Shown here: in pieces, positions 58,933-61,262 of the stretch
Numbering within the stretch: position 1 is the stretch's first letter
Layout: each line of letters begins with the position of its first letter
Assembly: GCF_013385985.1 (NCBI RefSeq)
Contig: NZ_JACAOY010000006.1
Span: forward strand, 414,581 to 478,580
Direction of reading: 5' to 3'
Source: Pseudomonas sp. B6002
GTDB lineage: Bacteria > Pseudomonadota > Gammaproteobacteria > Pseudomonadales > Pseudomonadaceae
DNA: 64,000 nt
Notes under the pieces: model-generated
What the model saw: the letters and a program-made list of their open reading frames with translations, nothing else
The model's database searches: none
Told to the model about the DNA's origin: nothing
Position numbers and translations under genes: made by a program

Positions 58933-59886
58933 TCATTTAGTGGGCGGGGGCAGGGCGACCGGCGTGAGCACCGGGCGGCCGGCGAAGTATTCCACCAGGT
59001 TGTCGGCGACGCGCTGCACGGTGTCATGGGCGGCTTCCGGTGACAGGCCGGCGACGTGGGAGGTGAGCACGGTATTGCTCAGCTTCTTGAGCGCGTCGGG
59101 CACCTTGGGCTCATCGTCGAACACGTCCAGTGCGGCGCCGCCGATCCGGCGCTGCTCCAGTGCCGTCACCAGGTCGGCGGTGACCACCACGCTGCCACGG
59201 CCGATGTTCACCAAGTAGCCGTTGGGCCCCAGTGCGTCAAGGGCGTGGCGATCGATCAGGTGGCGAGTACTGGCCCCGCCGGGCGTGGCCAGGATCAGGA
59301 AGTCCGAAGTACGCGCCAGTTCCACGGCGGTTGCGCAATAGGTGTAGTCCACGTCATCGCGAGGCTGGCGGTTGTGATAACTCACCTCCATGCCGAACCC
59401 GAGGGACGCACGCTTGGCGATCTCCATGCCCACCGCACCCAGCCCGAGGATGCCCAATTGCTTGCCACCCAGAGACGGGCGCATCACCTTGGGCCATTCG
59501 CTGCGGCGCACGGCGGCGTCTGTCTGGGGGATGCCGCGAACCAGCGACAGCAGCAGCGCCATGGCGTGGTCGGCCACCGACGGCGCGTTCACCCCGGCGC
59601 CGTTGGTCACGACAATCCCACGGTTGCTCGCCGCTTGCAGGTCCACGTGCTCATAGCCAGCGCCGATCACGCAGATGATCTCCAGCAGCGGCAAGGCGGC
59701 GATTTCTTCGGCATACAAGCCCAGCGGGCCACGGGTCAGCACCGCCTTGATCTGCCCACCATGGGCCTTGATCGCCTGGGCGCGTTCGGCAGGCGTCGGC
59801 GCCAGAATCACATGAAAGTCATTGCTCTCGATGATTTGCAGGTATTCGTTGATGGTTTCAACCAGGACCAGAACGGTGGTGGACAT
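58933..59886 (-). CDS. D-isomer-specific 2-hydroxyacid dehydrogenase
   Basis: 317 residues. NAD(P)-binding GLGAVGMEIAKR near 150, catalytic Arg in NIGRGSVV, Glu in DVFDDEPKVPD and His in SHVAGLSPEA. It interconverts 2-oxo and D-2-hydroxy acids; the sequence is nearer to glyoxylate/hydroxypyruvate reductases than to lactate or phosphoglycerate dehydrogenases. Monocistronic, separated from the next locus by an AT-rich gap. Confidence 0.9.
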   Translation of the reverse strand: MSTTVLVLVETINEYLQIIESNDFHVILAPTPAERAQAIKAHGGQIKAVLTRGPLGLYAEEIAALPLLEIICVIGAGYEHVDLQAASNRGIVVTNGAGVNAPSVADHAMALLLSLVRGIPQTDAAVRRSEWPKVMRPSLGGKQLGILGLGAVGMEIAKRASLGFGMEVSYHNRQPRDDVDYTYCATAVELARTSDFLILATPGGASTRHLIDRHALDALGPNGYLVNIGRGSVVVTADLVTALEQRRIGGAALDVFDDEPKVPDALKKLSNTVLTSHVAGLSPEAAHDTVQRVADNLVEYFAGRPVLTPVALPPPTK

Positions 59887-60013
59887 CGGAAGGCTCTTCC
59901 TGAAGGGTTTGAGAGGGGCAGTATGCGTGATTTGTAAGACGGAGCGTTTTGTTGGGATAGAAAATTTTCTTCTTTCGTAAGGCCTGTCTGAATTTCAAAA
60001 CCGTCCGTCCAGG

Positions 60014-60403
60014 GTGGGTGTACTGAGCCAGACTTTGTCGACTTTCCCACCTGCAGAGACGACATGGATGCTTGTTCCTGCCACACCCGAAGAGATCGAA
60101 TGGACGCCATACGGTTACAAACACTGCCCCTCAACGCTTGTCCCCTGGAGAACGGTCATCGCCAGTACAGTGGTGGGCCCGGCCAAATACCGGCCCGGCA
60201 TCGCTATTGAAAAGCTGGAACGAGAGGCCTATAAAAATGGAGTGCCCACCACCAACGGAAAACCCTGGAAAGTGATGGAATGCCAGCATTGCATCGGAGC
60301 CAGTCATGGGAAACTCAGCCGCTGGGTGCGAGTAGAACTCAGTGCTGGCGCTATACATGGCCACCCGATTTCTGAACAGGAATTCATGAGGTTAACAAAT
60401 TGA
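60014..60403 (+). CDS. Orphan toxin-like C-terminal domain (headless)
   Basis: The coding frame is open from 59981, just after a TAA, to 60403 (about 140 codons); a GTG at 60014 and an ATG at 60068 are in frame but neither has a convincing ribosome site. The N-terminal part (ETTWMLVPATPEEIEWTPYG) looks like a linker domain seen before toxin tips in polymorphic or pyocin-like proteins. The C-terminal ~75 residues (YRPGIAIEKLEREAYKNGVP, VMECQHCIGASHGKL, WVRVELSAGAIHGHPISEQE) have a conserved-looking His/Trp set suited to a small nuclease or other enzyme. It is visibly AT-richer than its neighbours. The stop is fused to the start of the next gene (TTGA overlap), the usual toxin-immunity layout. 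Family not identified. Confidence 0.6.
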   Translation: MGVLSQTLSTFPPAETTWMLVPATPEEIEWTPYGYKHCPSTLVPWRTVIASTVVGPAKYRPGIAIEKLEREAYKNGVPTTNGKPWKVMECQHCIGASHGKLSRWVRVELSAGAIHGHPISEQEFMRLTN

Positions 60404-60720
60404 TCGCGTTCAACTTTAGCGGTGGCACAGTCACCCATGACGATCTGTCACTGTTGCAGGACATTGCGGTGGCAAAACAAACCGACTTGCTGAAAGAAGA
60501 TATGCTCCAGGTGGAGTTTGCCGGTGGACTACTACTGGATGTGGGTTGGTACCCTGAGTTTGATGCTTCGGGTGGTTTCCGGATAAATGTCATCAAGAAT
60601 TTCGACTGGGATCGTCCGGTCGTGGCATTGACGGCATACGAAACCACAGAGCTTGTAGAACAACTGAACGTTGCGCAGGACGCCATCAATGGCGAACTGC
60701 GCAAGACCTCGGCTTTTTAG
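60400..60720 (+). CDS. Putative immunity protein of the orphan toxin
   Basis: 106 residues from a TTG at 60400 with GAGG 8 bases upstream, overlapping the toxin stop by 4 bases. Small, acidic and AT-rich in codon use: MIAFNFSGGTVTHDDLSLLQ, EFAGGLLLDVGWYPEFD, NFDWDRPVVALTAYETTELV. Single-domain alpha/beta pattern with no signal peptide, so it would act in the cytoplasm. Assigned as immunity only by position and coupling. Convergent with the cysteine hydrolase. Confidence 0.65.
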   Translation: MIAFNFSGGTVTHDDLSLLQDIAVAKQTDLLKEDMLQVEFAGGLLLDVGWYPEFDASGGFRINVIKNFDWDRPVVALTAYETTELVEQLNVAQDAINGELRKTSAF

Positions 60721-60737
60721 TAGGCGGTAGCCACGGC

Positions 60738-61262
60738 CTAACGCCAGACATCCACCGCTTTGACCCGCTTCACAAATGTCCCTGCCAGCGTCGCATTGTG
60801 ATGCTCGATGATCGCCCTGGCGGACAGCGCCGGGGTGTCCATGCAGGTATGGCCATCCTCCGGCAACACCACCGAAAACCCCAGCTCAACCGCCACCCGG
60901 CAAGTGGTGTCGACACAGAACTGCGTTTTCATCCCGACGATCACCAACTCATCGACGTTTGCTGCCGCCAGGCGCTCGGCCAGGTCAGTGCCTGAAAAGC
61001 AGCTGGGGCGGGTTTTGCTGAACAGACAGTCGCGGGCTTCGTCTACCTCAAGGCCCGGCCACAGTTGCCAGAGCGGGCTGCCCGCTTCGATGGGGGAGCC
61101 GGCCGGGCCGGTGTGGCGAGCGACGAAGATCGGTGCGTGGGCGGCGCGGGCGCGTTGAATCAGCAGGTTGATGGTGTCGAGCACGCGCTCCCGTTCGAAG
61201 GGTTTTTCCGGGCCGTCGTACAGGCCGACTTGCATGTCGATGATCAGCAGGGCGTTAGCCAT
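60738..61262 (-). CDS. Isochorismatase-family cysteine hydrolase
   Basis: 174 residues from the ATG at 61262 (AAGGAG 7 bases upstream). Catalytic triad of the family is visible: Asp9 in LIIDMQ, Lys83 in LFSKTRPSCF and Cys116 in MKTQFCVDTT. Such enzymes hydrolyse amides or vinyl ethers; nicotinamidase and N-carbamoylsarcosine amidase are relatives. Substrate unknown. A terminator and a possible leader peptide lie upstream. Confidence 0.9.
   Translation of the reverse strand: MANALLIIDMQVGLYDGPEKPFERERVLDTINLLIQRARAAHAPIFVARHTGPAGSPIEAGSPLWQLWPGLEVDEARDCLFSKTRPSCFSGTDLAERLAAANVDELVIVGMKTQFCVDTTCRVAVELGFSVVLPEDGHTCMDTPALSARAIIEHHNATLAGTFVKRVKAVDVWR

Follow-up and report, generated by a model that had tools for sequence, protein, structure and literature searches.

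A stand-alone Rhs-type toxin domain and its immunity gene kept at one chromosomal site in Pseudomonas

The gene pair

Two small genes of Pseudomonas sp. B6002 encode an Rhs-type toxin domain and an immunity protein. They lie on the plus strand of a 64,000-nucleotide stretch (contig NZ_JACAOY010000006.1, positions 414,581 to 478,580; hereafter the window), between a divergent 2-hydroxyacid dehydrogenase gene and an isochorismatase-family gene. Three results carry our account of them: the pair is homologous to the ends of Rhs loci, its stand-alone copies form one clade at one site, and the toxin is under purifying selection although no delivery domain was found with it.

The open frame holding the toxin runs from 59981 to 60403 and overlaps the immunity frame in a TTGA, in which the immunity TTG start occupies 60400–60402 and the toxin TGA stop 60401–60403. 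Read from position 60068, the toxin product is basic (isoelectric point (pI) 8.86), while its 106-residue partner is acidic (pI 4.18, net charge about -10). A first-pass annotation of this DNA had proposed a TTGA-coupled pair with an acidic second product, richer in AT than the flanking metabolic genes, and both points are borne out. The G+C fraction is 0.536 in the toxin gene and 0.511 in the immunity gene, against 0.656 in the dehydrogenase gene, 0.634 in the isochorismatase-family gene and 0.615 in the window, where 14 of 1267 sliding 650-bp stretches are equally low.

The same annotation saw a headless toxin, a 140-codon frame with no credible start. Alignment corrects this. In ten intact copies (the window's and nine relatives'), variation across 59984–60052 is about equal by codon position (16/23, 13/22 and 16/22), and from the in-frame ATG at 60068 onward it is biased to the third position (43/111, 35/111 and 84/110). 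This ATG is kept in 12 of 13 aligned same-locus copies, with GTG in locus L073 (L and G numbers are our handles for loci and genomes), and conservation rises at the block immediately 5' of it. Because the third-position bias begins at this ATG, itself conserved, the toxin gene most likely comprises 111 codons with a start of its own.

The immunity gene has a putative purine-rich ribosome site eight bases 5' of its TTG, AGGAGG in most relatives and GAGG in the window, which falls inside the last codons of the toxin. The putative ribosome site of the toxin is only weak. A simple scan of 59850–60800 found no sigma-70-like promoter.

Table 1. Features of the toxin–immunity locus, in window coordinates
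Feature	Position	Strand	Evidence
Leader separating the toxin from the divergent dehydrogenase gene; contains the start of the insert, after about 59960	59887..60067	+	comparison with empty sites
Conserved block GCAGAGACGACATGG directly 5' of the toxin ATG; putative weak ribosome-binding site	60053..60067	+	alignment, column counts
Toxin domain, 111 aa, Rhs-type C-terminal, stand-alone; predicted RNase	60068..60403	+	homology, predicted fold, codon-position test, omega
Shine-Dalgarno-like GAGG before the immunity TTG; putative function	60388..60391	+	alignment of 13 stand-alone loci
Acidic immunity protein, 106 aa; its TTG start overlaps the toxin stop	60400..60720	+	homologues after Rhs toxin domains, pI, omega

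Homology to Rhs toxins

The toxin is a homologue of the variable C-terminal region found in Rhs proteins. Its E against the final part of PDB 8qjc_A, entitled "T6SS-associated Rhs core and toxin domain" (T6SS, type VI secretion system), is 5.6e-31 by phmmer and 1.5e-43 by profile. Homology extends over 102 residues, and the blocks KH, GPAKY, TNGKPWKV, IGAS and IHGHPIS are common to both. Unlike the window toxin, a separate 111-aa gene, the 8qjc domain ends a 1530-residue Rhs chain.

To place the pair within the genus, we searched 399 Pseudomonas genomes, drawn evenly across it and including the window's own, at E ≤ 0.001. The toxin matched in 29 genomes and the immunity protein in 47, with all 29 among the 47. 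Eight toxin matches end open frames of 1388–1607 codons, and long-frame Rhs–immunity pairs occur in G099, G165, G168, G188, G197, G199, G137 and G355. Their toxins are 50–70% identical to the window's and an immunity homologue lies directly 3', as in the window; unlike the window pair, they have an Rhs shell (models were run on G099, G165 and G355), a DPLGL junction and a linker. Junction and linker precede the toxin domain in all 15 Rhs-linked ends shown. Five Rhs-linked frames, three long and two short, were tested: all five match Rhs_assc_core, and the long ones also match RHS repeats and DUF6531.

The frame upstream of the window toxin contains no YD/RHS repeat shell, Rhs_assc_core or DPxGL junction. 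The first-pass annotation had read the locus as a polymorphic-toxin C-terminal domain with its immunity gene, lacking both an N-terminal delivery domain and the large parent, and had named stand-alone homologues without toxin context as the finding that would speak against it. What we find are Rhs homologues and a pyocin-type one: all three long frames tested match Rhs models, and a Klebsiella S-type pyocin gene carries the domain as well.

Two of five partly scanned Rhs loci, L081 (G137) and L082 (G355), have VgrG-type and DUF4123 genes beside them, in the order VgrG-type, DUF4123, Rhs, immunity. No T6SS family was found in the parts scanned beside L074, L075 and L078. The toxins of L081 and L082 form a second sub-branch (GNKH, GGAAKY or GGAARY), and their immunity proteins share only some 40% identity with the window's.

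The immunity gene lies directly downstream of the toxin, and homologues hold the same place, directly 3' of the toxin domain, in the Rhs loci and on a Klebsiella plasmid. Its structural model is alpha/beta, with a predicted local distance difference test (pLDDT) score of 90.8, and a fold search returned no clear known fold. Immunity matches without a toxin match occur in 18 of the 399 genomes (G071, G183, G305, G108, G073 and others), which may hold free-standing immunity genes.

Some toxin matches away from the window's site are not clean Rhs ends. A piece in G034 lies directly behind an Rhs core end; broken pieces in G053 (L026) and G122 (L029) lie about 800 bases past one and resemble displaced toxin ends; and the Rhs-linked match in G363 has an internal stop. 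The pieces in G337 and G214 are broken, with no Rhs core or dehydrogenase within 1500 bases. The window's own genome (G000, loci L094–L099) has six Rhs_assc_core matches, five of them full and one partial, in open frames of up to 1621 codons. None of these frames ends in this toxin, because the genome has one toxin match only.

Candidate active site and predicted fold

Across 25 of the toxin matches, W12, W27, H19, H97 and H99 are invariant. The histidines and tryptophans singled out in the first-pass annotation are thus indeed conserved, while its cysteine is not: the 25-row alignment has no invariant Cys. We regard H19 and H97, in the motifs K18-H19 and H97-x-H99-P100, as candidate catalytic residues.

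The AlphaFold2 model of the toxin (pLDDT 88.7) has fold matches in 8hhj, 9v8i and 5e3e, and the toxin is predicted to be a ribonuclease (RNase) of Ntox50/RNase A-like fold. The earlier expectation of an enzymatic toxin is therefore probably right. Both H19 and H97-x-H99-P100 are conserved, with V of the Ntox50 HxVP motif replaced by H here, their structural position being read from the ends of the aligned ranges only. The Ntox50 profile (PF15542) does not match, and none of the 25 toxin rows matches any Pfam family at E ≤ 1. Neither toxin nor immunity protein has a meaningful match in Pfam, NCBIfam or PHROGs, in line with the earlier suggestion of an unnamed type. With no named profile for the domain in these databases, a set of Rhs proteins therefore carries at its end a probable RNase that goes unlabelled.

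One origin at one site

All 15 distinct stand-alone copies adjoin the dehydrogenase gene; further on comes the isochorismatase-family gene or a transporter. These are the window's own copy, L061–L069, L072, L073, L086 and one each in G261 and G059, with four duplicate records counted once. No intact stand-alone copy was seen away from this site. In the toxin tree, built from these copies less L072, L073, G059 and G261, the 11 stand-alone toxins group in a single clade, separate from the 13 Rhs-linked toxins (support 98/94; together in 98% of bootstrap trees). The cassette thus descends from one origin at one site.

The dehydrogenase was found at E ≤ 1e-150 in 123 of 399 genomes. Among the 30 best dehydrogenase loci, 4 have the cassette and 26 lack it, and in 20 of those 26 the isochorismatase-family gene comes directly next. 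On a dehydrogenase tree of 41 rows, from which the four duplicate records and the second locus of one genome were removed, the distribution of the cassette needs 9 changes, at least 3 of them forced by well-supported branches; the mean after shuffling is 12.5. One absence is a loss. L118 (G176), without the cassette, is sister to L073, which has it (100/99), and its left flank matches cassette-bearing relatives to nearly the same bases, followed by the end of the isochorismatase-family gene. A single old insertion followed by many losses fits best, and exchange of the cassette through its conserved flanks may have contributed.

Selection and decay

The toxin is under purifying selection and keeps its working shape in most copies seen. 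Using IQ-TREE, we computed the ratio of nonsynonymous to synonymous substitution (omega) for ten intact stand-alone toxins (the 15 copies less L069, L072, L073, G059 and G261). The estimate is 0.117, and a model with omega set to 1 loses 156 log units (-1924.1, versus -1768.4 with omega free). The immunity gene gives 0.092, Rhs-linked toxins 0.075 and Rhs-linked immunity genes 0.150. Pairwise dN/dS among the stand-alone toxins (45 pairs) has a median of 0.098, with one pair reaching 0.889. Between the window and its close relative L069 it is 0.15 for toxin and immunity gene alike, from few changes (5 and 2 nonsynonymous).

Decay has reached the toxin in 4 of 15 copies: L072 and L073 are frameshifted, L069 is 19 codons short in frame, and in G059 only a remnant containing a stop is left. 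All 15 copies retain an open immunity frame.

Nine neighbouring genes scanned against Pfam are all metabolic, regulatory or transport genes: 2-hydroxyacid dehydrogenase, isochorismatase family, TetR, APH-type kinase, short-chain dehydrogenase, permease, GntR/aminotransferase, cupin and methyladenine glycosylase. The isochorismatase-family gene (60738–61262) evolves faster than the dehydrogenase gene (omega 0.082 versus 0.034), and at some sites it is absent beside the dehydrogenase.

Mechanism and role

Toxin domains of this kind are normally injected into rival bacteria, and orphan toxin cassettes are usually viewed as spare parts or debris beside a parent gene. We think it probable that the pair consists of an Rhs-derived RNase toxin blocked by its immunity partner. 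Translationally coupled, it would have come off a T6SS Rhs effector once, landed between the dehydrogenase and isochorismatase-family genes early in what we take to be the Pseudomonas fluorescens-type clade, and been retained since in part of that clade. The toxin would act as a small Ntox50/RNase A-like enzyme cutting transfer RNA or other RNA in the cytoplasm; as its fold and motifs suggest, the general base could be His19 and the acid His97 together with His99. The toxin's acidic partner would cover and block the basic active site. A weak toxin start, a stronger antidote ribosome site and the TTGA overlap would together supply antidote in excess.

Since purifying selection acts on the toxin despite the absence of a delivery part, its role is most likely intracellular. 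The pair has the make-up of a type II toxin–antitoxin-like system, with two small coupled genes, a toxin with its own start, and maintenance by selection. The likeliest present role is that of an addiction or toxin–antitoxin-like module, whose antidote may also guard against the Rhs effectors of neighbours. At less than even confidence, we propose that an Rhs toxin has been domesticated. It would have lost its injection shell in a single event, acquired a start codon and persisted through much of the clade's history as a resident chromosomal toxin–antidote module acting in addiction, stress or phage defence. The RNase toxin family would then be new and so far unnamed, and the immunity fold one for which no clear counterpart is known.

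Competing readings differ from this account mainly about role. The selection on the toxin would also suit a cargo effector, bound without covalent linkage to a T6SS component (Hcp, VgrG) or otherwise secreted to attack neighbours, and small T6SS cargo effectors without delivery domains exist. Yet none of the nine scanned neighbours is part of a secretion system, and no DUF4123 gene is among them, unlike at the parent loci L081 and L082, so we consider this unlikely. That the cassette is a decaying remnant, functionless at present in any lineage, seems quite improbable. The four broken toxins, the loss in L118 and unusual changes in the intact toxins of L063 and L066 would agree with it, but the rejection of omega = 1 and the codon periodicity starting from a conserved ATG would not.

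More weight goes to a protective immunity locus, which is possible but in our view short of probable. Here the antidote would shield its host against rival Pseudomonas Rhs effectors of the same toxin type, with the toxin a decaying passenger. The immunity frame is open even in the stand-alone copies whose toxin is broken, the 18 genomes with an immunity match only would fit, and an Rhs orphan immunity protein is described as protective in Serratia (PMC10539506). Against this, 11 of 15 copies retain an intact toxin frame, and ten of these evolve far from neutrally. An active toxin would moreover force retention of its antidote, so toxin-first loss is expected under either reading, and the order of loss alone does not decide between shield and addiction module.

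The first-pass annotation favoured a spare cassette, a displaced pair able to recombine into a parent Rhs gene and switch its toxin. PMC10539506 reports orphan C-terminal toxin (CT)–immunity modules accumulating at Rhs and CdiA loci, and PMC3482391 recombination with standalone cassettes. The six Rhs core places of the window's own genome would offer partners, and the displaced pieces in G053 and G122 resemble such spares. At the window locus, however, no Rhs core end, DPLGL junction or linker is left; no DNA match longer than 15 bases links the cassette to the 3.1–3.2 kb around each of those six places (best E 0.2); and the copies form one clade at one site among metabolic genes. We judge this role very improbable. 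Of the earlier account, then, the polymorphic-toxin pair of an unnamed kind stands, and the headless toxin and the role as a recombination spare find no support.

Relation to known systems

Most surprising is the retention, in working shape and in most copies seen, of a toxin that is related to an injected one and lacks a delivery part. Because it is so kept without a delivery part, it suggests a new use inside the cell in some soil Pseudomonas. With its single-clade origin, fixed chromosomal address, start codon of its own and a toxin under measurable purifying selection, this cassette allows a direct test of whether interbacterial weapons become resident toxin–antitoxin systems. Orphan CT–immunity modules as such are already known (PMC10539506, PMC3482391); among open-licence papers we found no description of one kept as a resident single-copy module.

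Several known RNases are comparable. The window toxin is about 12% identical to YxiD (B. subtilis 6633) and MafB2-CT (N. meningitidis B16B6), Ntox50-type RNases from which it differs in having HxHP for HxVP, no middle His and no Pfam match. The RNase A-like CdiA-CT of Yersinia kristensenii has another parent, and its immunity protein is described as eight-helix, whereas the window's is modelled as alpha/beta. Ribocin (RbcN) of P. aeruginosa is, like our toxin, a stand-alone RNase, with a predicted fold closest to that CdiA-CT. It is set apart, by description only, in having a signal peptide and acting on host ribosomes, and the portion of its description seen mentions neither an Rhs relation nor an immunity gene (PMC13189344).

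The toxin domain is common to T6SS Rhs proteins and a plasmid bacteriocin-type gene. On plasmid p8BG of Klebsiella michiganensis a version with 38% identity, which retains KH and IHSHP, ends a 178-aa gene annotated as S-type pyocin; the gene that follows shares 37% identity with the immunity protein across 75 residues. This pair differs from the window's in its bacteriocin-type context, plasmid location and longer toxin gene. At L102, from a Klebsiella michiganensis plasmid (about 3138–4518), an IS5 transposase gene splits the S-type pyocin gene from the remaining toxin piece, and the immunity-like gene is still open despite this interruption of the toxin homologue.
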